Part shown: in pieces, positions 1,275 through 55,395 of the stretch | Position numbering within the stretch: the first letter of the stretch is position 1 | Layout: each line of letters starts with the position of its first letter | IMG/VR virus record: IMGVR_UViG_3300008735_000002 | Coordinates: 55,016 to 119,015 of that record | DNA from: a virus | Length of the DNA: 64,000 nucleotides | Direction: 5' to 3' (one strand) | Position numbers and translations under genes: made by a program | Notes under the pieces: model-generated | The model's database searches: none | Told to the model about the DNA's origin: nothing | The model's input: the letters and a program-made list of their open reading frames with translations, nothing else

Positions 1275-2231
1275 TCATCCTAATGCTCGTAGTGTCATGA
1301 ACAATTTATCATAATCAAAATTGCGAATTCCAAGTTTCATCAAAGACCGAATAAATCCTAGTTTGTCTCTCTTTGTATCTTCCAGTTCTAGCGCGCCATC
1401 GATTTTCTGGACCTGGGTTCCAGATAAGTTTCCGTGTCCTAGATACATAAGCTTCCAATTTCTGCGAATCGTGACTTCGTGATTGATGATGCTATCATAA
1501 AGCTTCAAGCTCTTTTGTTTTCGAAGTTTTCTACATTTTGTAAGTATGTCGTCGACAGCCAGACTTTCTGGTTCTTTCAGGGTACCGAAGCGCTTTGCAA
1601 GACTCTTAAACCCAGCGCCAGGGACACCTTTTAGCCCGTCTGATCCGTCACCAACAAAGCATCTGGCTAAACAAAAATTTTTGGGATGAATGTTAAACTC
1701 ATCGACAACTTTTGTAGCAGTCCACTCCCTTTTGCTACCGGGGGACCACACCGAAATTCGATCATCGATCAATTGGTAAAAATCTTTGTCTGTGGAAATT
1801 ATAACACATCTCTCATCGCTGAAGTTAACGCTAACAAGTCTCGCTATAACATCATCAGCTTCACAATCTGATATATAAATTTGCGGAACACTTGCTTTCC
1901 TCAATAGGCTCACGAGCTGGGCTACTTGCTCGTTTCTATTTGAAACAGTGTTTGGTAAATCATCACCGGAATAAAATCGGTTTAGTTTCTCAGGACGTCT
2001 ACCTGCCTTATACGTCGGGTCAATCGATCGCCTCCGAGGAGAGCCGCCACCCTCCCAAACAACAACGATATCCTGTGGTGTATACCTCTCAGAAAGTAAC
2101 TGTAGACCTTTCAAGAATCCAACAATTCCTCCCACAGCATTTCCATTTTCCCCCATTGAAGGATTTGCGGCAAAGTGTCTATAGAAGCAATTCAGTCCAT
2201 CGATTATTAGAACGGGCTTAACTGGCATCAT
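1275..2231 (-). CDS. 5'-3' exonuclease / flap nuclease (T4 RNase H-like)
   Basis: PIN/FEN-type 5' nuclease, expected to remove RNA primers and flaps during lagging-strand synthesis. The 318-residue protein has the family pattern: N-terminal LIIDGLN with metal ligand D11; an acidic cluster CEADD near residue 122; STDKDFYQL; and a helix-hairpin-helix-like segment around VGDGSDGLKGVPG. Length matches T4 RNase H (about 305) and other phage 5' exonucleases. The start overlaps the UvsX stop (ATGA type), with two consecutive ATG codons at 2231 and 2228; either could be used. It lies between UvsX and the helicase, so it belongs to the replication operon. The call is based on motifs and gene order; the choice between RNase H and general flap nuclease is inferred. 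Confidence 0.9.
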   Translation of the reverse strand: MMPVKPVLIIDGLNCFYRHFAANPSMGENGNAVGGIVGFLKGLQLLSERYTPQDIVVVWEGGGSPRRRSIDPTYKAGRRPEKLNRFYSGDDLPNTVSNRNEQVAQLVSLLRKASVPQIYISDCEADDVIARLVSVNFSDERCVIISTDKDFYQLIDDRISVWSPGSKREWTATKVVDEFNIHPKNFCLARCFVGDGSDGLKGVPGAGFKSLAKRFGTLKEPESLAVDDILTKCRKLRKQKSLKLYDSIINHEVTIRRNWKLMYLGHGNLSGTQVQKIDGALELEDTKRDKLGFIRSLMKLGIRNFDYDKLFMTLRALG

Positions 2232-3418
2232 TCATTTAGATCAGGCAGATCATCAAGGTTAATTTCCATTGCAGCTGCTCGCACCTCTTCGTAAGACTCA
2301 GTGTCAAGCGTCGCATGCTCATCATCAGACATTTTTCTAATCATACACGCGCTAAGAAGAGAATCGATATAACGTCTATATGCAGTGTCTTTCCACACAC
2401 CACCAAAATCAGCCTTGTAGAATTTCTTTTCTATCTCTATTTCACCAGTCTTTGTGTCGGTCACTGTTAGATTCTTCCACGCGCTGGTTCCCTTTACACA
2501 AATTTCTTTTCCATCGATAATTTCAGGACCGTGTTTTCTTAGCTCGTCAAATACTTGCTCATGTTCCACAATCCCTTTGCCGAAGTGTATCTCGAAATTA
2601 CACTCTCTGAAGGGCGGCGCAACCTTATTCTTAATAGTCTTAGCACGAACGTGAATGCCAATAACCTCTTTATTTTTATTGGTGATCTGCTGTCCTGCTC
2701 CCAGCTTGATTCGTACTGATGAATGGAAAGGTATCGCCTTACCACCGGGGGTTGTAGTGGGGTCACCGTACATGACTCCGATCTTTGTTCGAATTTGGTT
2801 TAGACAAATGAATAGCACGTTCTGGTTCGCAATAACCCCCGTAATTTTTCGCATTCCCTTAGAAATAGCTCTAGCCTGTAGGCCTATAGAATTTTGTTCA
2901 TAAGTTCCATCTAGCTCAGCCTTTGGAGATGAAGCCGCAACAGAATCCCAAATAATCGTAACGGGAACGTCTTTATCCATCGCTTTTGCTTTTAGTATCG
3001 TTGATTCCGCGATGCCTAAAACCTCTTCTGTGCAGTGCGTGTCGACATACACAAAACGCTTTGTGATGTCAACCCCAAGCAACCCAAGATTTTCAACAGA
3101 CGTTGCATTTTCAGTATCGATGTAAACAACAATACCGCCCAACTGTTGGGTTGAGCGAGCTATCTGAATTGCAATATGAGATTTTCCTATTGAAGGAGGA
3201 CCGAATATCTCTATGATTCTTCCTTCTGGTAAGCCGCCATCACTGCGATTTGCGATGATGTAATCAAGCTGTTCTGAGCCAGTGCTAATCCATCGATTAA
3301 CATGAGTTGGTGACTCATCGGTTGAAAGATTATACGCCACTCTAGAACCATGCTCTTTATTAAGAGACTTGATTAGGTCAGAAGTGAAATCATCGCCGCC
3401 ACCTTTTTTCTTTGCCAT
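2228..3418 (-). CDS. uvsX: RecA-like recombinase UvsX
   Basis: Strand-exchange ATPase that would form presynaptic filaments on ssDNA and drive recombination-dependent replication, working with the SSB encoded just upstream. The 396-residue product has Walker A GPPSIGKS (residues 73-80), a Walker B-like strand in VTIIWDSVAA, and the RecA pattern NQIRTKIGVMYGDP followed by TTPGGKAIPFH. I start it at the ATG at 3418, preceded by GAGGTAAT. A longer frame starting at 3484 would run through a terminator hairpin and a promoter, so that extension is rejected. A sigma70-like promoter (3437-3465) gives it its own transcription start. Length is close to T4 UvsX (about 390). Confidence 0.95.
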   Translation of the reverse strand: MAKKKGGGDDFTSDLIKSLNKEHGSRVAYNLSTDESPTHVNRWISTGSEQLDYIIANRSDGGLPEGRIIEIFGPPSIGKSHIAIQIARSTQQLGGIVVYIDTENATSVENLGLLGVDITKRFVYVDTHCTEEVLGIAESTILKAKAMDKDVPVTIIWDSVAASSPKAELDGTYEQNSIGLQARAISKGMRKITGVIANQNVLFICLNQIRTKIGVMYGDPTTTPGGKAIPFHSSVRIKLGAGQQITNKNKEVIGIHVRAKTIKNKVAPPFRECNFEIHFGKGIVEHEQVFDELRKHGPEIIDGKEICVKGTSAWKNLTVTDTKTGEIEIEKKFYKADFGGVWKDTAYRRYIDSLLSACMIRKMSDDEHATLDTESYEEVRAAAMEINLDDLPDLNE

Positions 3419-3436
3419 ATTATTACCTCGTAAAAG

Positions 3437-3465
3437 ATTATAGGAAAAAAAGCTGTAGTGTTCAA
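3437..3465 (-). promoter_or_regulatory. Sigma70-like promoter of the uvsX operon
   Basis: On the minus strand TTGAAC, a 17-base spacer, then a perfect TATAAT. It lies directly after the SSB terminator and about 20 bases before the uvsX ATG, leaving a very short leader. Boxes and spacing are seen directly; use by a sigma70-type host polymerase is inferred. Confidence 0.72.
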
Positions 3466-3497
3466 ATAAAAAGGGAAGAGGCAACGCCTCTTCCCTT
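3466..3497 (-). terminator. Intrinsic terminator after SSB
   Basis: A perfect 12-bp inverted repeat (AAGGGAAGAGGC, 3-base loop, then its complement) followed on the minus strand by TTTTTATTT. It lies 28 bases after the SSB stop and directly before the uvsX promoter, so it should separate SSB from UvsX transcription. Confidence 0.88.
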
Positions 3498-3524: not shown

Positions 3525-4319
3525 CTAAAAGTCGTCATCCTCAAGATCGGCGAACGCGTCATCAAGGCTCTTGAACTTAGACTCGATATTTTTTGGTGCG
3601 GAGCTAGTGGTAGTATTACCGTTGAATCCGCGGCTCGTTCCACCCTCATCTGTTTCAGCGTCATCACCTTCTAGCCAATCGTTGATAATCTTCGCTAGCG
3701 CTTCATACGCCTTCGCTTCATAAAGATCGTCGATTACTGGAATCGATTCTGTCCATGTTGCAGCCTGCTTATTATCCTTAGAAAGAGGTGATTGCTTTCC
3801 TCGTGGACGGACTTCAGTCGTCGCCCACATGCGTCCCGGCGCCTTGGTACAGATTACCTTAACATCACGACCATCAGTCGGGTCAGTAATATCGCCGTAA
3901 TCTTCATCGAGCATAATGTTCAGCAAGGACTGATAAACTGTCTTACCGAAAGACCAGACTCGAACACCCTTATCTTCTTCGCCGCGAACGATTACCGGGG
4001 CATAATAGCGAGCCTTAGGATATAGCTTCTTACAAAGCTCGTAAGACTCCTTTGTGCCCTCATCCCTAAGCTTGGTAATCAACTCCTGAACAGGGTCTGG
4101 ATTACCGAACTGGTAAGGTGCTAGAAGACCGGGATTATTTCCGATGTTATAATAAAACCAACGCTCTGAGAATGGAAGTCCATCATCATTATCGCTGAAT
4201 GCCATAAGACGAACTACGCTTTCTTCGCCTTCTTGGGGACGCCAAAGTACATTTCGACGTGAGTTATTGCCAGATAGCTGGCCAAGCTTCTTACGAAGCG
4301 CTTCCATATCAATTGCCAT
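3525..4319 (-). CDS. Single-stranded DNA-binding protein, gp32-like
   Basis: Coats ssDNA at the replication fork and during recombination. The 264-residue protein has the gp32 layout. A short basic N-terminus would mediate cooperative contacts. The core contains RNVLWRPQEGE, a YNIG...LAPYQFG...DPV segment and an aromatic-rich region (KARYYAPVIVR). A Ser/Gly linker leads to a strongly acidic tail ending DLEDDDF, which in gp32 recruits partner proteins. The usual gp32 zinc-ligand set is not evident, since only isolated Cys residues are seen. GGAG lies at good spacing before the ATG at 4319. Its own promoter and terminator make it a single-gene transcription unit, fitting the high amounts such proteins need. 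Confidence 0.9.
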   Translation of the reverse strand: MAIDMEALRKKLGQLSGNNSRRNVLWRPQEGEESVVRLMAFSDNDDGLPFSERWFYYNIGNNPGLLAPYQFGNPDPVQELITKLRDEGTKESYELCKKLYPKARYYAPVIVRGEEDKGVRVWSFGKTVYQSLLNIMLDEDYGDITDPTDGRDVKVICTKAPGRMWATTEVRPRGKQSPLSKDNKQAATWTESIPVIDDLYEAKAYEALAKIINDWLEGDDAETDEGGTSRGFNGNTTTSSAPKNIESKFKSLDDAFADLEDDDF

Positions 4320-4666: not shown

Positions 4667-5506
4667 TTATTCAGAAAAACGATGTTTGGGCTCTATTTCG
4701 AAATATTGCGGCTCAACTTTAGAAAGATTTTCAACGAGCCATTGACACTCACGTTCTGCGGCGTCTTTCGTGTTCGTGGCTTTCCACCAACAAACAAGAT
4801 CAGGATTCCAACGATATCGACCCTGCTTTAAGATTACATTCTCTTCCCGCAAAGATCCAGCTGCAAATACATGATAATCTGGAGCTACAGCATTCTCAAG
4901 AAGCTCTTTCATGTAATGTTTCTTTCGTAGGAGATGAAGAGTCGCATCAACATCTGACTCTGCGTTATGGGAATCGTAATAGAAGCCGTGCCATGCACAC
5001 AAGACCTCTAAAGCCTTAGAGCACCGAACCGTACCAGTCCAATCAACTTGAGACATCGAACAACCCCAGATGGCATCTTCGGGCACGGAGCATCCGTTAT
5101 TTCTTATGGCTTGCTCTATCCACTTTCTATCAAAAGAAGCATTATGAGCGATGATGAATTGACACCGTCCAAGGATAGATGAAATGCGATCCCATGGGAT
5201 TGACTTACCCTCCAAGTCTTCATCCACAAACCCGGTTATCTCTGTAATAATCGAAGGTAGTGGAGAGGAGGGCTGTTGCATTTCGACGAGCGTTTTCTTT
5301 AGTCCGGAGACTTCACCCGTTTTAAGGCTTACAAAAAATGGACGGACCGCAATTTGGATCACTTCATCTTTCTGGTGGTTAAGCCCGGTTGTCTCAACAT
5401 CTACAATAGCAGCAACTACGTCACCATCTTCCGGGGTTCGATCTGGTGGCCTTAAAGCATCCAGCTTACTTAAGATAATCTGTCCGTCTTGTTCTAAATG
5501 CTTCAT
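4667..5506 (-). CDS. DEDDh 3'-5' exonuclease (DnaQ / Pol III epsilon-like)
   Basis: Proofreading-type 3'-5' exonuclease. The 279 residues include all three Exo motifs: DVETTG (D36, E38), AHNASFD (D126) and H180-x4-D185 in HNAESDVDATLHLL, which is the DEDDh form. A C-terminal segment with GRYRWNPDLVCWWK resembles the tail domain found on several bacterial and phage epsilon-like exonucleases. The nearby polymerase A gene has no exonuclease domain, so this protein probably supplies proofreading in trans; that pairing is inference. The 60-base leader holds a possible promoter (5531-5559). Confidence 0.9.
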   Translation of the reverse strand: MKHLEQDGQIILSKLDALRPPDRTPEDGDVVAAIVDVETTGLNHQKDEVIQIAVRPFFVSLKTGEVSGLKKTLVEMQQPSSPLPSIITEITGFVDEDLEGKSIPWDRISSILGRCQFIIAHNASFDRKWIEQAIRNNGCSVPEDAIWGCSMSQVDWTGTVRCSKALEVLCAWHGFYYDSHNAESDVDATLHLLRKKHYMKELLENAVAPDYHVFAAGSLREENVILKQGRYRWNPDLVCWWKATNTKDAAERECQWLVENLSKVEPQYFEIEPKHRFSE

Positions 5507-5530
5507 TAACGCTCCACAAATGCTATTAAA

Positions 5531-5559
5531 ATAATAGAGCCAACTTGCAAAGTGTACAA
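5531..5559 (-). promoter_or_regulatory. Possible sigma70-like promoter before the exonuclease gene
   Basis: Minus-strand TTGTAC, 17-base spacer, TATTAT, lying 25 bases upstream of the exonuclease ATG. The -10 box matches 5 of 6 consensus bases and the -35 box only 3 of 6, so it is weaker than the SSB and uvsX promoters. Confidence 0.4.
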
Positions 5560-5566
5560 CCTAAAG

Positions 5567-6076
5567 TTACCAGCTCCCCTTTATTTCTGAAGCGTAAACA
5601 ACTACACCTTCACCGTCCACTTGGATCTGAAGCGGTTCATTCGATTTTAGTAAGCCAGCTTTCATAGCTCCCATCAAAGTATGGTGAAGAAACTTCGCTC
5701 CATTCCGGGCGTTTAATTCGCCCATTGAAATACGAAGGCCAGGATTACCACCCTTCGAAACTTTCTTAACGCCGCCGTAGGCTAACTGCATTACCTCTGC
5801 ACCCCCGATGGCTTGCTGGATAATCTTTCCAGCACCGTCGAAGTTAGAACCACCGCTCGATACCTCGAGGTTCTTCATCAACTGCTTGGGGTCCTTTGTC
5901 GCCAACGCACCAGCATCCGCGACAGCTTTGGTGAACGCGCCTCCGCCAACTGACAAACCGATCTCACCCGCTTTTATCTTTACAACTTTCTTCTTATTAC
6001 CACGCCCTTTCGGTTTTTCTTCTTCACCCTCGGTGAGGACTTGTTGAATAATTTGTCTTATCTGTTGCTCATTCAT
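5567..6076 (-). CDS. Hypothetical protein between polymerase and exonuclease
   Basis: 169 residues, no recognised family. It begins with an IRQIIQQVLTEGEEE helix followed by a Lys/Arg-rich patch (GRGNKKKVVKIK), then an alanine- and glycine-rich middle (residues 40-115) and a mixed alpha/beta C-terminal part ending near VVYASEIKGSW. The start overlaps the polymerase stop by 8 bases, which suggests translational coupling. The basic patch and position between polymerase and exonuclease make a replication accessory role conceivable. The terminal helix is instead shared with small head-region genes, which favours a packaged or docking role. Neither can be settled from sequence. Confidence 0.6.
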   Translation of the reverse strand: MNEQQIRQIIQQVLTEGEEEKPKGRGNKKKVVKIKAGEIGLSVGGGAFTKAVADAGALATKDPKQLMKNLEVSSGGSNFDGAGKIIQQAIGGAEVMQLAYGGVKKVSKGGNPGLRISMGELNARNGAKFLHHTLMGAMKAGLLKSNEPLQIQVDGEGVVVYASEIKGSW

Positions 6077-7265
6077 AATGGTTAAACTCTTTTATCTTAA
6101 GTGGAAAATTTCCTAATCCCGGTACGCTGTACCCTATATCTACATATCTTTTAATATCGTCTAAATGCTCATTATTAACATCAATAATCAACGCATCGTG
6201 AATTACGAAAAGTGGACGGCACTGTTTCGAAAACTTCTGCACAAAATGACTAAACCCCGCAATCGCGACATCAGCAGCAGTCGACTGAAGATAATTATTG
6301 ATTAGAATACTTTCTCTTGCATTATCGACATCAATTGGCCGACCAAAATAATTCTGTATAATACCTTCTTTTGCTTGCTGAAACAAATGCCTCTTTAACG
6401 CTGATAGCTTGAAATATTCACTCACAGCACGTACAAGTTGTCTAGCAGTTATATCGACAGTCTCGGTAGCCAACAGTTTATTAAGCCTGGAATTACCTGC
6501 CCCATAAAGCGAACAAAGCACCGCGAGCTTCGCAGTGTCCCTTGATACTTTGACCCCCGTAGTTTCGAGGAAAGAAAGATACACGTCATTTGACGCATGC
6601 ACATTCGCAAAGTTTAAAGCGACTCTTGGTTCGAGAGAAACAAAGTCAATTTCGAATAATCTCGAATTAGATTTTCTTGGTGCGAAAATACTTCGAAATT
6701 CTTTCTTAAGCGTCAAAACTTGCGGACCTGATTTGATGGTCAACCTGCCCGTCTTTGTAGAAACCCTATCATAGAATGGTACGTTTAGCAAGGAATCATG
6801 AGAACCAGACAACATATGACGAAGCACATGAGAATCGTTAGTTCGAATGAGTTTCTGTAATAAGACTTTGTCCACCTTCGCGCGCTCAAGTCTTGAAAAC
6901 AATCGATTCGAATCTACAAAGAACGATGGATATTTGCTTTCAACAAAAAGCTCTTCTATCTTCGCCAGGTCTTCGACATAACTCCTAAAATTTTCCTTAA
7001 AGACTTCCCGCGGTAGAACAAATCTCCATGGAATTATCTTGGGGCCGTTTAGGTCTAAAAAGCTCTTTCGAAATTTTGCAGGTACAAAGTCTGGCATTTC
7101 TATACCATACAAACGTAATAGCGGCTCAAGAGAATCTGGTCGACCCTCACATCCCAGCACAAAATACTCACCGACCCCAATATCGCTAGTCCACCTAACC
7201 TGATTACCGCTAATGACCATGTGAGTCTCGGTCCCTAGATAATTTTTATGTAAGAGAATCGGCAT
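6069..7265 (-). CDS. Family A DNA polymerase core (no exonuclease domain)
   Basis: DNA polymerase of the Pol I/T7 type. Of 398 residues, roughly 165-398 carry the palm/fingers signature: TGRL near 172; motif A FEIDFVSLEPRV with metal ligand D207 and E212; motif B RDTAKLAVLCSLYG with K246 and Y254; motif C FVIHDALIIDV with H356 and D357. Motif C normally reads HDE; here it is HDA (A358). The first 160 residues have no exonuclease motifs, and the protein is far shorter than T7 polymerase (about 700) or Klenow (about 600). Proofreading is probably provided by the DEDDh protein two genes downstream. No family B (gp43) polymerase is in this window, so whether this is the main replicase is unknown. 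Confidence 0.88.
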   Translation of the reverse strand: MPILLHKNYLGTETHMVISGNQVRWTSDIGVGEYFVLGCEGRPDSLEPLLRLYGIEMPDFVPAKFRKSFLDLNGPKIIPWRFVLPREVFKENFRSYVEDLAKIEELFVESKYPSFFVDSNRLFSRLERAKVDKVLLQKLIRTNDSHVLRHMLSGSHDSLLNVPFYDRVSTKTGRLTIKSGPQVLTLKKEFRSIFAPRKSNSRLFEIDFVSLEPRVALNFANVHASNDVYLSFLETTGVKVSRDTAKLAVLCSLYGAGNSRLNKLLATETVDITARQLVRAVSEYFKLSALKRHLFQQAKEGIIQNYFGRPIDVDNARESILINNYLQSTAADVAIAGFSHFVQKFSKQCRPLFVIHDALIIDVNNEHLDDIKRYVDIGYSVPGLGNFPLKIKEFNHYE

Positions 7266-38176: not shown

Positions 38177-38709
38177 TAGCCTACTCCCTGATACCCGTTC
38201 GAGCCTGTGAGCGCGAGGGATCCGACGGGAATATCTGTCAACCCCGCTACCACACAAAACCCGCTATTGTGAGCGGAGTGCATTGTCAAAAAGAGATCGG
38301 TGCACATTAATTCATACCGCATAGCTGGAGCTTCAGAAGTTTGCGAACTTGGAATAACGAAATAATTTTGGTGATTAGCAACCTGCGCCTCAGTGCTTGG
38401 TAGCGGCTGGAGCTTTCTCCACTTTTGTGTTCCGTTAGTATTGAACTCGCCAGTTGGAATAGAGCCAGTAACAGCGCCTTCGCCCTTTACACCATTCTCA
38501 GTGAAACCTATTCTAATTTCTGCAGCAGAATTACTTGCGTCTAATCCACGGACCTCAAACCATCTGGTTACTCGAGGAAAAGAAATCTGAACTACGTTGC
38601 TAGTCGCCGTTTTTAATTCAGCTCCATTCGAAGACGTTACGAAAGGAATACCGCTTCTTTGATATTCACCAACCATTCCAAGGCCGGGGCTTGGCCACGT
38701 ATTACTCAT
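38176..38709 (-). CDS. Conserved virion structural protein (WPSPGLGMVGEYQ family)
   Basis: 177 residues from the ATG at 38709, which shares bases with the protease stop (ATGA). The N-terminus SNTWPSPGLGMVGEYQ followed by a SGIPFVTSS element is a pattern I associate with head-region structural proteins of large marine and jumbo myoviruses. The rest is beta-rich with RWFEVRGLDASNSAAEIRIG and a final GFCVVAGLTDIPVG. A capsid-surface or core role is inferred from its place between protease and small core genes. Confidence 0.62.
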   Translation of the reverse strand: MSNTWPSPGLGMVGEYQRSGIPFVTSSNGAELKTATSNVVQISFPRVTRWFEVRGLDASNSAAEIRIGFTENGVKGEGAVTGSIPTGEFNTNGTQKWRKLQPLPSTEAQVANHQNYFVIPSSQTSEAPAMRYELMCTDLFLTMHSAHNSGFCVVAGLTDIPVGSLALTGSNGYQGVG

Positions 38710-39326
38710 TCTGATTCTCCTTCTTCCCAATCCAGCACTTCATTGAACAAGCGATGGATTCGATCTGATTTGTTAAAAACTTTATTGAGGTCTTTTTCTC
38801 TAATCGACACACCCTCTCTCATCATGAATGCTCCGGGTGTGGAAGGCTCTGAAACAAAATCCCAGCATATAAGCTGGAAATCATCTTGTACAACATCTGT
38901 ATCACCAGAACGCTTTGTCGATCCAACACCTCTGGAAGAAATGCCAAGAGTTACGCCGGCCTCAACCAGACTCTGAAGAATCTGTCCTGCGGGAGTATCT
39001 AACAACTCTACTGTCCCGTATACTACATCTCCATCCATATAAGCTTCCCGTATAATATGAGAAGCGTTCTTCAACTCAACTACTGAGCTGTCAGGATGAT
39101 CACATTCTCCGAGAGCACGATTTTCAGCAATAAACTTTTGATAATTTCGAATCTCTCTATCTAGAATAGATCGTGGGTAAACACGCCCATTTTGATTAAG
39201 CGTATCAGCTTTTTGCAATACACCCTTCATAAGAAGCTTTCCGCCATTTTCTGCTTTTGCTTCTTCGATCATCTCCTTAGAGTATTGCCAGGGCGACCAT
39301 TCTGTTAGTAATTTTAGATCAGACAT
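38706..39326 (-). CDS. Prohead core protease, gp21-like
   Basis: 206 residues (T4 gp21 has 212). The herpes-type/gp21 protease fold is shown by LMKGVLQKADTLNQNGRVYP, ECDHPDSS with catalytic H77, and TLGISSRG with S130 or S131 as nucleophile; an Asp between 149 and 156 may complete the triad. It matures the head by cutting capsid and scaffold proteins after Leu/Ile-x-Glu sites. It lies between the portal-adjacent gene and the core genes, in T4 order, and overlaps both neighbours by a few bases. Confidence 0.92.
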   Translation of the reverse strand: MSDLKLLTEWSPWQYSKEMIEEAKAENGGKLLMKGVLQKADTLNQNGRVYPRSILDREIRNYQKFIAENRALGECDHPDSSVVELKNASHIIREAYMDGDVVYGTVELLDTPAGQILQSLVEAGVTLGISSRGVGSTKRSGDTDVVQDDFQLICWDFVSEPSTPGAFMMREGVSIREKDLNKVFNKSDRIHRLFNEVLDWEEGESE

Positions 39327-44118: not shown

Positions 44119-44358
44119 CTAAAGCTCCTCTTGCTTAATTATCCTGTCTTCCACTAACTTTTCTCTATACCTTGAAATATGTTCTTCAGAGGGGGAGAAA
44201 TCTTTATCTTCTTTTAATTTTCTCAACGGTTCTACTAACGAAATCCAACACTCCACGCAGCAGTTAGTCTCTAAATATTGCACGGAATCTTTCATATCCC
44301 GCATCATTAATTCACAGATAGGACAATCGAGAGGAACAAAGAAGCTATCACTCTGCAT
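44119..44358 (-). CDS. Small Cys-rich, probable zinc-binding protein
   Basis: 79 residues from the ATG at 44358, inside the last codons of the Mre11-Rad50 gene. It contains CPIC near the N-terminus and CCVEC about 20 residues later, enough ligands for one zinc site, followed by a charged helical tail. A TTG 13 codons upstream would extend it but has no ribosome site; AAGGG is placed for the ATG. Overlap with the recombination nuclease suggests coupled synthesis. Function unknown. Confidence 0.6.
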   Translation of the reverse strand: MQSDSFFVPLDCPICELMMRDMKDSVQYLETNCCVECWISLVEPLRKLKEDKDFSPSEEHISRYREKLVEDRIIKQEEL

Positions 44359-47300
44359 ATCTAACCCTTGCGTCCTTCCCCGATTTTTGAATATCAATGA
44401 CGTTGTCGACGATATCTTTCACAGCATCAACATGCGAGATAATCAGAATATTAGTGAAATACTTCTTCAATGAAGTCAACAGCCTTGAGCAGGCTTCAAT
44501 ATTCTTATCATCAAGAGCGCCAAATCCCTCGTCAATTATTAACACATCGCTTCGCGGTGCATTGCAGATATTGATAAGCCCAACTCTTAGCGCAAGAGAT
44601 GCAATCATCTTTTCCATACCGGAGCCGCATTCGATAATGCGCTTGGAATCACCATAATCTATAAAAATATCCATGTTGTTGGAGTCAGGGTCTGCCTCAA
44701 GCGTTAATTCAAAATTAACGACGCCCTGTAGTATCTTGGTAAGCTCAGCATTGATCTGCGGAAGCTGTAATGAAAGAATCGTTAGGGGGATCCCCTTCTT
44801 ATCAACTGCCTGCATGAATGTGCTATACGTTTCCCATCTTGTCTTAATCGTGCTATAGCGCTCTCGTTCTTCATTAAGATTTTCTCTGACCTGTTTCGTC
44901 ACGCTAATCTGCTCAGTCAAATAAAGCCTTGATCCATCAAGCTCAGATATCCGATGCTCAATCGATGTAAGATCCTTTCGCATCTCTATAACTTCACCAT
45001 CTTTCTCTTCATCTATAGATCGCAATCGCATTTCACGCAGTGCTTCTTTTCCAGCGAGCAAAGAAGTAACAAGCTCTTGATGGTCCGACTCAGATTCTTT
45101 CATGGAGAGTTTCATCTCTGAATTCTCTAACTTTAACGTCTGCTCTTGCTGCAACAGACCCTCATATTTCTTAAGCTTCTGATCGACACCTGCGGAAAGT
45201 AGAGAATCTAGATTCGACTTGACTGCCCTCAACTCTTTGCGCACATTCGTTACGATCTCTTTCTGACCGTCTAACTCCCTAGAGCTTTTGTGCGCATCTT
45301 TGATGTACGGACATTTTGGGAACTCATCCCCACATGGAACGCTCTCAAGCTTTTTTGCCAGCTTTTTCTTTGAATTTAATTTCTGAATCTCCAAATTCAA
45401 GCCTGCTTCGATAAGTTCACATTGACTTCTTAATTCATTCTTAAGCACTGCTTGTGCTCTTAACTCATCAATCGGAAACTGGTCTTTGATAATCGCAATT
45501 TTCTCCAGCCTCTTCGATATCGCATCTCTTTCAGTCGATAGCTCTATTATCTTGTTGCGTGCTGTATGCTTCTTTGTTTCAAGCACGTTAAGCTTCTCAA
45601 CTTGCTCTTCTAGTTGCACCTTTGTATATTTTCCTGATGTGGGTAAAGCAGCCAATCTAATCTTAAGATCATCCCTCTTTTCCTTCAACTCTTCCAGCTC
45701 ATCTTCTACCTCTTTTTTCTCATCAGCAAAGCTCTCCAAAGATTCGTCCTGTTCGCATATCAGGATCTTCCAATTTTTATCTGGAGCAGACTTCATTTCT
45801 CCTCGCAATTCTGACATTTCATTTTTTGCGATCTTTAACATTTCATCAAAAATCTGAAGATCTAGAAAACGAGTAAGAATAGCTTTTCTACGAGTTGAGC
45901 CCTCGCGTATAAACGCGTTCATTTCTCCCTGTGACGCAAAGGATGTCATAAGAAAATCATCAACACTGCCAACGAGCGTTTTTAAGACTTTCTCTGTTTC
46001 CCTCCTTTGCTCACCAGTGTTGTCTTCTATCTGCTCACCGCTTGCGTCTAACTTAAGCAGGTTGAGATTAGTCGGGGCAGAGACAGCTCCTTTTCTGTTA
46101 GTGCGCTTAATTGTCTGGCGGTCTGCTCGATATAGCTCTCCCCCTACAGAGAAATCCACAGTAGCGCGACAAAATGTCTTTCGATTATTTACAACATGGA
46201 GATTTTTTAAGACCCCTCTGTCAGTAGAATTAAATAGTGAATAAACTAATGTACCGGGTATCGAGGACTTGCCGCACCTGTTCTTTCCAAAAATACCAGT
46301 GATCCCATTCAAGACGTCAAAGTCTATTATGTTTCCCTCACCATATCCGAAAGTGTTATCAAAAGCCAGCTTTCTCAATCTCCACTGGTGAGACTTGTGA
46401 ATTACCTGCTGCACACATCGCTTAAAAATATCTTTGTGTAATTGTCTTAAGAGGTCTCTATCTTCTTCAGGCATTTCAAGCTTAGAAACAAAATCGCTCA
46501 TAAGCTTATCTTGCTGCGTGAAGTTCCTTAGATCATTGCGACTAATCTTTCCAATACTTGTACTAATCTCTACTTCGGAACCAGTGAATGATGAAGCTTC
46601 ATTTTTTGAAACAACTTCATACGCGGCAAACCTCTCCTTAAGCGCGGCCTGAAGTTGCCTAAAATCTAACTGATTTATTCCGCTGTGCGCGATCCTGAAT
46701 CTAGAACCAGACCATTCATCAGGTATCTGATCTAACGTCTCTACGACATCGCCTTGCCAGGCTATGGTTCGAAATGAGTGTGGATTGTGTAGAGGGATAA
46801 ACTGCACATCAAAATCATCTTTGCTCTTGATATGCCAAAATAAAAATCCTTTCTCGACATCTTCCCCGTAATTTTGCTGAATGGTAGAGCCAGGATACGC
46901 GACCTTCTCAGTCAGAAATTGTCTCTTATGAATATCTCCCAGCAGCGCATAATCATAATCTTTAAAGAAATCGACCTTAATAGTGTCGCCATTAATTTCC
47001 CAATCTTGATCTGTAAGTGAGCCATTCACAGGCCCATGATAGAGCGCCAGATTGACCCCTTCTGGTGGGGGTGTTAGTTCACCCCAAGACTTCTCGTCAA
47101 AGCAACAGAAGGTACACCAGTTGTATCCGTCGACCCCTGTAGGATAAACGCCGGTACCCTTCATTAACTGAATACGATCGTTATTCATAGTGTTGATAAT
47201 CGGAGTGATCGCGTCGAGGCGGTCTTCATTCAACATAAGCCCGTCATGATTACCTAAGATAACATGCACAGGAGCTATTTCAGCTAATGAAGTAAACCAC

Positions 47301-47494
47301 CAGCGCAAAATCTCAATTAGCTCCGGGCTTATACCCTGTGTCTTTGAGTGGACGATATCTCCACCCAGAAAAATAACATCTGGCTGAAGATCTTGAAGCT
47401 TTTCAAAGGACTGCTGAAATACTTTTCGATATTCATCATGACGTGTCAACCCTCTGAAATGTATATCTGCAAAATGCGCACACTTAAAAGACAA
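44348..47494 (-). CDS. Fused Mre11-Rad50 (gp47-gp46 / SbcD-SbcC) recombination nuclease
   Basis: One 1048-residue chain joins two proteins that are separate in T4. Residues 1-330 form the Mre11/SbcD phosphoesterase: FADIH (D10, H12), GGDIVH (D46), GNHD (82-84), YHGPVNG (H153) and LGDIHKR (H189). A linker near 330-380 leads to the Rad50/SbcC ATPase: Walker A GKNRCGKS (403-410), a QGEMNAF Q-loop region, two coiled-coil arms (about 555-715 and 735-890), an apex with C721-x6-C728, then signature CGSGMEKM (956-963), Walker B LIIDEG (985-990) and a D-loop LDD. It would resect DNA ends to feed UvsX. The reading frame is continuous, with no stop between the two halves. Confidence 0.93.
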   Translation of the reverse strand: MSFKCAHFADIHFRGLTRHDEYRKVFQQSFEKLQDLQPDVIFLGGDIVHSKTQGISPELIEILRWWFTSLAEIAPVHVILGNHDGLMLNEDRLDAITPIINTMNNDRIQLMKGTGVYPTGVDGYNWCTFCCFDEKSWGELTPPPEGVNLALYHGPVNGSLTDQDWEINGDTIKVDFFKDYDYALLGDIHKRQFLTEKVAYPGSTIQQNYGEDVEKGFLFWHIKSKDDFDVQFIPLHNPHSFRTIAWQGDVVETLDQIPDEWSGSRFRIAHSGINQLDFRQLQAALKERFAAYEVVSKNEASSFTGSEVEISTSIGKISRNDLRNFTQQDKLMSDFVSKLEMPEEDRDLLRQLHKDIFKRCVQQVIHKSHQWRLRKLAFDNTFGYGEGNIIDFDVLNGITGIFGKNRCGKSSIPGTLVYSLFNSTDRGVLKNLHVVNNRKTFCRATVDFSVGGELYRADRQTIKRTNRKGAVSAPTNLNLLKLDASGEQIEDNTGEQRRETEKVLKTLVGSVDDFLMTSFASQGEMNAFIREGSTRRKAILTRFLDLQIFDEMLKIAKNEMSELRGEMKSAPDKNWKILICEQDESLESFADEKKEVEDELEELKEKRDDLKIRLAALPTSGKYTKVQLEEQVEKLNVLETKKHTARNKIIELSTERDAISKRLEKIAIIKDQFPIDELRAQAVLKNELRSQCELIEAGLNLEIQKLNSKKKLAKKLESVPCGDEFPKCPYIKDAHKSSRELDGQKEIVTNVRKELRAVKSNLDSLLSAGVDQKLKKYEGLLQQEQTLKLENSEMKLSMKESESDHQELVTSLLAGKEALREMRLRSIDEEKDGEVIEMRKDLTSIEHRISELDGSRLYLTEQISVTKQVRENLNEERERYSTIKTRWETYSTFMQAVDKKGIPLTILSLQLPQINAELTKILQGVVNFELTLEADPDSNNMDIFIDYGDSKRIIECGSGMEKMIASLALRVGLINICNAPRSDVLIIDEGFGALDDKNIEACSRLLTSLKKYFTNILIISHVDAVKDIVDNVIDIQKSGKDARVRYAE

Positions 47495-53601: not shown

Positions 53602-55395
53602 TCACTCACTTATATCTTGCTCTAGGGTAGTCTTTTTCTCCGAAACACTGTCCTGCAGAATCGAATCATCGATGACGACCTCTAGCTTCTGATCGAGCAA
53701 TCTGTCAGTATTGATAAACTGAAAAACGTATTTAGACAAAGGATCTATCGTAGTTGTACAAAAAGCTGGTATTACTTCTCTTCCATTTTTAAGTAGTGTA
53801 TATGCTTCTGGATTAAAGTAAATGTTAACTGCTTTGTGTGCGCTATCTTTCATGGTGTCAACAAAGAAGTTTTCTTTTAAGTGCCAATTAGGGTACTGCT
53901 TTGGGGCACCGCTATATGAGATAAACTCTTTCTTTATTTTATTCTTGGAAGTATCAAAGCTAATCTGAATCTGAGCAGAATAGTGTGAACTTATTTGTCT
54001 TGCATCAACTGCCACTACAGAATAAATATACGTCTTTGTCTTATCAAATTCTGTATCAACAAAATAAGTTGGGAATGATTTTATCGACCTGTTTAAGCTG
54101 GGGTCTATATATTCTTTGGGCTCGGTTCGAACTACTGAATCATCAAAATCAAAATTAACAATAAGCTCAAAGGGATCCTTGATGGTTTTCCTTCGAAAGA
54201 CCTGAATATACTTCACGTCACGTTGTGGGTTAACAGGTGGGGCCCAAGTGAGCACTAGATTCTCTTTATCATATTCGAAATAAAAATTAATGTCGCCAGG
54301 TGGTTCTGGTCTACGGTCTTCTTTTATAGTAATGGATACGGCGGGGGATGGCTTTGACGCCAGCAAAAAAGACTTTATGAATATTTCTCCCTCTGTGCTT
54401 GTCGCAGGCACCCTGAATTTCGCTATCGTTCTTCCTACATATTCGTATGTTTGTCCATAAGCTACCTGGCTGTCATAAACTGTTCTTACTTCTTGACCCA
54501 TGGCGATGATCGGAGGCATCGGATAACGTACGCCCTTATATATCCGCCTCTTTTCTATTATGAAGCCCACAACGTCAGCCTGGGATACGAAATCCTCTGT
54601 TTCAGATTCTTCAATGCTGACGTACGGTATATCAAATAAATACTCATCATTACTTAGCAGGTGAGACGTATCTTTCGGTTTTCTGCTGCCCCATAACAGG
54701 AAATCAGCTATCGCTTGAGATTTTCCAAGTGATGTACCACGCTCTACGACTGTTCGCTTCATGAGAGGAGCGTAAAAGGAATTCAACTGCATCAGTGTGA
54801 ACTGCTTTGCTTCTTCTTCAAAAAAACCACCATTAGTTGTGGAAACGTCTGTCTCATCTTTTAATGACGGCGGTAACATGCTTTCCAATAAATTCGAATC
54901 TATATCGCTAGTTTCAGCAATCAGTGACAGTAATTCAAGTGGTGTTGCTTCATCAAGACCCATAGAATTTAAGCGAGCCCTTAACATGTTTTCAATGTCA
55001 CGTGGTAAGCACTCGTTCGCTACGCAAATCGACTCATATCCCATCCCGGATGCGTCATCTTCAGAGAAGATCTTTCCGTTGCTTAACGCCCACTCTATCT
55101 CACCTTTGGTAGAAGATACCGCGGAAGACTTTGTGGCCAGCATACTTTTCTTTGTGTCTTTTAGACCGAAGGTCAAAGTAGCAAATCTCGGTATTCGAGC
55201 GTTTAAATTTGTTGTATCAACTGTTCCCTTTCTTAAAAATCGAGAAGATAAGTTTCCGTTAAGCGCGTCGTTGCCAGACTCGTCGATTGTTTCATCACTA
55301 ACAAAAAAATTATATGTGAAGCTTGCTTTCACTTTTTCCATCTCAGGAACATCAAAAACGGGAAGAGGACGGCTAGCAATAGACTCTACACTCAT
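53602..55395 (-). CDS. Virion protein with Fn3-like domain
   Basis: 597 residues. The N-terminal half is helical and polar without a match. Residues about 350-470 read as a fibronectin type III module: PEPPGDINFYFEYDKENLVL with TWAPPVN, KYIQVFRRKT, and YIYSVVAVDARQISSHYS. Fn3 modules are common on phage tail surfaces. The start overlaps the upstream gene (ATGA). It is likely part of the baseplate or fibre complex together with its large neighbours, one of which also carries an IRVFRR-type Fn3-like strand. Confidence 0.6.
   Translation of the reverse strand: MSVESIASRPLPVFDVPEMEKVKASFTYNFFVSDETIDESGNDALNGNLSSRFLRKGTVDTTNLNARIPRFATLTFGLKDTKKSMLATKSSAVSSTKGEIEWALSNGKIFSEDDASGMGYESICVANECLPRDIENMLRARLNSMGLDEATPLELLSLIAETSDIDSNLLESMLPPSLKDETDVSTTNGGFFEEEAKQFTLMQLNSFYAPLMKRTVVERGTSLGKSQAIADFLLWGSRKPKDTSHLLSNDEYLFDIPYVSIEESETEDFVSQADVVGFIIEKRRIYKGVRYPMPPIIAMGQEVRTVYDSQVAYGQTYEYVGRTIAKFRVPATSTEGEIFIKSFLLASKPSPAVSITIKEDRRPEPPGDINFYFEYDKENLVLTWAPPVNPQRDVKYIQVFRRKTIKDPFELIVNFDFDDSVVRTEPKEYIDPSLNRSIKSFPTYFVDTEFDKTKTYIYSVVAVDARQISSHYSAQIQISFDTSKNKIKKEFISYSGAPKQYPNWHLKENFFVDTMKDSAHKAVNIYFNPEAYTLLKNGREVIPAFCTTTIDPLSKYVFQFINTDRLLDQKLEVVIDDSILQDSVSEKKTTLEQDISE

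Follow-up and report, generated by a model that had tools for sequence, protein, structure and literature searches.

A family A polymerase core next to an exonuclease gene in a large phage: a probable dismantled Pol I module beside a DnaE-type polymerase

A family A DNA polymerase core (PolA), a 169-residue protein (g169) and a DEDDh 3'-5' exonuclease are encoded side by side in a 64,000-nucleotide stretch of viral DNA (the window; positions 55,016 to 119,015 of IMG/VR record IMGVR_UViG_3300008735_000002). The window belongs to a 119,015-base record, referred to here as G000, which is probably itself a fragment since the contigs of close relatives reach 255 and 281 kb. The three genes appear to form part of a seven-gene replication and recombination cassette (Table 1) in a myovirus that would replicate by means of DnaE. 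On balance, the data favor the idea that PolA, a FEN-like 5'-3' exonuclease and the DEDDh protein represent a bacterial Pol I dismantled into single-domain proteins, an accessory module beside the DnaE replicase in which the DEDDh protein would act with PolA in trans. Expressed together with a single-stranded DNA binding protein (SSB) and RecA, the module would carry out short-patch synthesis on DNA coated with SSB/RecA, namely gap filling, the replacement of primers and synthesis linked to recombination, while DnaE, with its intact PHP proofreading site, would replicate the genome. The DEDDh protein is the most likely source of 3'-5' exonuclease activity in trans to the PolA module in the clade that includes the window. 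Pol I-like activities would thus be spread over separate genes in viruses replicating with a bacterial-type DnaE.

Table 1. Cassette genes and the dnaE gene. Positions are those of the window unless preceded by G000 or a locus name.
Feature	Position	Strand	Basis
polA, family A DNA polymerase core, 398 aa	6069-7265	-	PF00476, fold match
g169, 169 aa, no assigned fold	5567-6076	-	ORF, position beside polA
DEDDh 3'-5' exonuclease, PRK09182/NF006615 kind, 279 aa	4667-5506	-	PF00929, phrog_192
g82, conserved small protein, 82 aa, LREYIR-type N-terminal helix	4410-4658	-	position kept in 16 contigs
gp32-like SSB	3525-4319	-	PF08804 3.5e-12, phrog_1192 1.2e-20
RecA/UvsX-like recombinase	2228-3484	-	PF00154 9.4e-66, phrog_97 1.6e-71
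FEN-like 5'-3' exonuclease	1275-2231	-	PF02739 4.1e-29; NF004397
DnaE-type replicative polymerase, 1206 aa	G000:41014-44634 (L016 3014-6634), outside the window	-	domains, TIGR00594

PolA matches the Pfam family A polymerase profile over residues 165-375 (PF00476, 4e-11), and its AlphaFold2 model (pLDDT 89.8, pTM 0.89) matches the Klenow, Bst and Taq large fragments in a comparison with PDB structures (E ~1e-13). The protein comprises palm, fingers and thumb only and is devoid of both 3'-5' and 5'-3' exonuclease domains. It combines the family A fold with motif A (D207/E212/R214), motif B (R242/K246, with Leu at the '762' position) and motif C (H356/D357), the two catalytic aspartates included. 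Full-length relatives range from 383 to 413 aa. A profile search of G000 and 13 related contigs revealed no PF01612 exonuclease domain; nor was a family B polymerase, a second PolA or a PolA-type exonuclease found in the contigs searched. No cellular relative of the protein emerged when the PolA alignment was searched genome-wide against bacteria.

The exonuclease retains the complete set of DEDDh catalytic residues (D36, E38, D126, H180 and D185) and a conserved C-terminal domain (RYRWNP..WW). It matches PF00929 at 2.3e-12 and phrog_192, 'DNA polymerase exonuclease subunit', at 5.8e-31. It resembles NF006615 (PRK09182), matched over the full length with 195.7 bits, slightly short of the model cut-off of 207, and by all 13 aligned homologues (best E, 2.6e-61). 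Domain, fold and residue evidence thus bears out the original prediction in that polymerase and exonuclease are separate genes on the same strand.

The order polA-g169-DEDDh-g82-SSB-RecA-5'exo is found in 16 of the 19 related contigs examined in detail, G000 counted; several of these contigs are near-identical, making for fewer independent lineages, and all may be fragments. The order persists among relatives down to about 30% PolA identity and is therefore not a chance pattern of ORFs. The polymerase and exonuclease genes show strong co-occurrence in related genomes. Of 31 contigs searched (G000 and 30 retrieved via their DnaE), 20 contain PolA and 17 the DEDDh protein. Three contigs, G018, G025 and G030, lack the DEDDh gene and carry an HD-domain protein within the same stretch. 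The cassette's 5'-3' exonuclease is most similar to the N-terminal domain in models of bacterial Pol I (1.7e-35 to NF004397, DNA polymerase I, over residues 2-242). A second FEN-like 5'-3' exonuclease, of 278 aa, is encoded at G000:19541-20377. Literature searches found no description of the seven-gene cassette.

A wider search with the PolA alignment yielded 191 matching stretches, from which 80 loci were kept and grouped into 50 clusters at 90% identity. PolA residues R174, D207, E212, R214, R242, K246, H356 and D357 are kept in all 50, a conservation that is partly due to ascertainment, one search pattern having included SLEPR; H356, D357, R242 and K246 lie outside the search patterns. A nuclease-fold gene was found downstream of polA in every cluster. 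It specifies a PRK09182-type DEDDh protein in 17 clusters, an HD-domain protein in 31 and another, short DnaQ-like DEDDh protein in the remaining 2 (L185 6214-6810 and L209 6220-6816, both 14 nt after polA; PF00929 at 1.9e-12 and 1e-12, respectively). The PRK09182-type and HD genes never occur in the same cluster (0/50). The HD gene frequently overlaps the polA stop or directly adjoins it, and at some loci is several hundred bases or more distant; its product weakly resembles the HD domain of YhaM, a 3'-5' exonuclease. Mapped on the PolA tree, the partner type switches about three times. Since the nuclease gene is absent from the stretches of L136 and L138, two polA loci found via g169, the association is strong, not universal.

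Many of the proteins encoded in this slot have lost their catalytic residues. The five DEDDh residues (D-E-D-H-D) are intact in 12 of the 17 clusters, the window included, and all five are lost in the other 5 (L168, L173, L179, L197 and L204). The dead proteins keep their length and position, aligned members also keep the C-terminal RYRWNP..WW region, and the three present in the scanned alignment still match NF006615. One pair of dead genes with usable dS gave a dN/dS of about 0.13 (dS is saturated elsewhere), and on this account the dead gene is probably not drifting but under purifying selection. No other PF00929 exonuclease was detected in G019, a 188-kb contig with a dead DEDDh gene. Among the HD proteins, the HD pair is lost in 14 of 31 and partial in 7 more, a crude count (14-21/31) in which four positions were scored; in L180, L186, L191, L192, L202, L203, L207 and L211 the pair is replaced by CL or SL (LFCLIGK), leaving the protein dead by sequence. 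Because 5 of 17 DEDDh clusters have lost catalysis, 3'-5' activity in trans cannot be generally required, and the protein in this slot may be a partner that can often do without its nuclease activity.

It is conceivable, then, that the slot encodes a structural accessory subunit of nuclease fold that has switched between unrelated folds or families two or more times and whose binding is selected while its catalysis decays. The occupation of the slot by a DEDDh, HD or DnaQ-like gene in 50/50 clusters, the recurrent loss of catalysis alongside a PolA whose residues are kept throughout, and the purifying selection and retained C-terminal domain of the dead DEDDh proteins all speak for such a subunit. 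We nevertheless regard this explanation as doubtful: adjacency is not interaction, L136 and L138 do without such a protein, the PolA tree offers only some three changes of partner type, and the HD scoring depends on just four positions. Improbable, too, is the more general proposition that a family A polymerase reduced to its core is assisted by an accessory subunit, drawn from nuclease folds unrelated to one another (DEDDh, HD, DnaQ-like), which repeatedly loses catalysis yet is retained. The B-subunits of eukaryotic polymerases, thought to be inactivated phosphoesterases, would provide a parallel to a decaying subunit of this sort. Whichever applies, these loci provide a test, made by nature, of what a minimal family A polymerase requires, proofreading in trans or just a partner shaped like a nuclease, and partner replacement and decay over 50 lineages make the question directly testable with small proteins.

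The identity of the replicase bears directly on the role of PolA. The DnaE protein, a polymerase of family C, contains PHP, Pol3-alpha, finger and HhH domains and scores 591.6 bits against TIGR00594 (cut-off, 434). Its nine PHP metal ligands, HHDHEHCDH, are complete and identical in 16 of 16 relatives; they conform to HHDHEH[C/H]DH, the pattern by which the PHP exonuclease is scored active (PMC12926913), and the PDID catalytic motif is also present. In Mycobacterium tuberculosis DnaE1, the PHP exonuclease is active according to PMC5636811. In contrast, the PHP site is not intact in DnaE1 of alpha-, beta- and gamma-proteobacteria (PMC3919608). Of 20 contigs checked for DnaE, 13 encode it, among them G000 and the largest contigs. 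The protein ranks with the slowest-changing proteins compared, being 83-90% identical to relatives whose PolA is 28-44% identical. Judging from its motifs, DnaE is likely to be the genome replicase and to be able to proofread for itself; a polymerase so complete, conserved and apparently self-proofreading is the best replicase candidate, which makes PolA probably an accessory enzyme.

The original prediction likened these genes to a Pol III-type split; as a replicase model, this would make PolA and the DEDDh protein the main proofreading polymerase, with g169 as a possible connector or processivity factor. The three genes are indeed contiguous and conserved together, and the catalytic residues of PolA are invariant. 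Yet the genome contains another complete and far more conserved polymerase, DnaE with its intact PHP motif, the DEDDh protein falls far below the cut-off for epsilon subunits (see below), is catalytically dead in one clade of relatives and gives way to other proteins elsewhere, and g169 has no clamp-like fold. Hence, co-occurrence stands while the split replicase finds no support, and we consider this model very improbable.

The presence of DnaE raises another possibility, namely that the DEDDh protein is an epsilon-like proofreader serving the phage DnaE, its place beside polA reflecting incidental clustering of replication genes. Apart from DnaE being encoded in the same genome, this possibility draws on the fact that the exonuclease domain of PolC is the nearest PDB sequence to the DEDDh protein and that homologues from cultured phages bear the annotation Pol III epsilon or 'DNA polymerase exonuclease subunit'. 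However, the PHP site of DnaE is intact in all clades, so that a second proofreader would be unneeded. Moreover, the DEDDh protein stays below the DnaQ equivalog cut-offs, with 24.3 versus 222.7 bits for TIGR01406 (dnaQ_proteo) and 18.6 versus 71.5 bits for TIGR00573, and DnaE is still 83-85% identical in genomes where the DEDDh protein is dead. DnaE and PolA show no shared trend in their residual distances, a weak test as DnaE itself is part of the background. An epsilon-like role thus appears unlikely.

The favored reading, a dismantled accessory Pol I, is consistent with the way in which the proteins co-vary. In 12 genomes (non-independent pairs), PolA distances track those of the DEDDh protein (partial r 0.77) and of the 5'-3' exonuclease (0.69) beyond the SSB/RecA/DnaE background; g169 distances follow PolA less (partial r 0.25). 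Counting against it are the five dead DEDDh clusters and the loci L136 and L138. In addition, the DEDDh gene has relatives in phages that carry full family B polymerases, and the HD gene has relatives in phages with no PolA annotated nearby; neither family is therefore tied to the present PolA. Thus, three phages (phiM9, ORM_20, Atu_ph07-like) have a homologous DEDDh gene of the phrog_192 group (~29-34% identity, 84-88% coverage) but family B polymerases and no PolA match.

Comparison with known systems places the arrangement close to bacterial Pol I (E. coli Pol I, Taq/Bst large fragment), with which it shares the family A fold and active site and the company of FEN-like 5'-3' and 3'-5' exonucleases. 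It differs in having a separate gene for each activity and in the nature of the 3'-5' nuclease, which is of the DEDDy type in Pol I and of the DEDDh (PRK09182) type in the phage, some relatives having a dead version or an HD protein in its place. Rhodothermus phage RM378 is a possible split-polymerase precedent, although one not documented in the literature found. As in E. coli Pol III (alpha-epsilon), a separate DEDDh exonuclease is encoded in a genome that also encodes DnaE, but the phage exonuclease adjoins a family A polymerase and is not close to DnaQ. Actinobacterial PolA2/APEX (PMC12926913) likewise is a family A polymerase lacking working intrinsic proofreading beside a DnaE replicase; APEX, however, retains a remnant of the exonuclease domain as well as a motif for clamp binding, whereas the exonuclease domain is absent from the phage PolA. 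Marine jumbo phages with DNA_pol3_alpha (PGC_A, PMC9123017) are, like the relatives analyzed here (contigs of 255-281 kb), large tailed phages carrying DnaE; the PolA cassette is not described in the searched portions of that paper.

The start of g169 overlaps the polA stop by 8 nt, and the gene adjoins polA wherever the contig reaches that far; within the window's own clade it is the gene most tightly coupled to polA, and G018 carries a divergent copy beside its polA. The predicted protein (model pLDDT 80.6) consists of an N-terminal helix ending in an LxE site, a basic low-confidence linker and a small alpha/beta domain. No matches were found in Pfam, PHROGs or NCBIfam. Foldseek comparison of the model with PDB and BFVD returned no fold match with E<=0.001, designed proteins heading the insignificant hits, and no clamp-like or other established processivity-factor fold; the suggestion that g169 is a processivity factor thus found no support. 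A search of 14 contigs detected no beta clamp either.

The N-terminus of g169 may hint at a different fate. An [LI]xE site lies at residues 11-20 in 20 of 23 homologues, and the N-terminal motif M..LREYIRELLxE recurs on otherwise unrelated ORFs (10 of 130, versus 0.7 expected from shuffles), its carriers being several ORFs in G000:1-7229 plus g82 and g169. N-termini like that of g169 are present in at least 8 other ORFs of the contig. In T4-type phages, capsid-targeted internal proteins carry a short N-terminal helix cleaved after (L/I)xE by the head maturation protease, and such an enzyme is encoded here at 38706-39326. The recurrent N-termini are thus candidate capsid-targeting sequences and, on the model of those of T4 (PMC9026906), g169 could be packaged in the head; if it is, this argues against a simple processivity role.

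Several other genes were recognized in the course of the analysis. Within the window, the single chain encoded by a 1048-aa ORF (44348-47494) matches families of both SbcD-like and SbcC-like proteins and looks like an SbcDC fusion. The record also contains genes for a DnaB-like helicase, a primase and RuvC, as well as for a sigma-70 factor (G000:16645-17406), a phage-encoded GroEL-like chaperonin (G000:17801-19381), a glutamine synthetase-like protein (G000:49812-50822) and a B12-dependent ribonucleotide reductase (G000:52363-54858).
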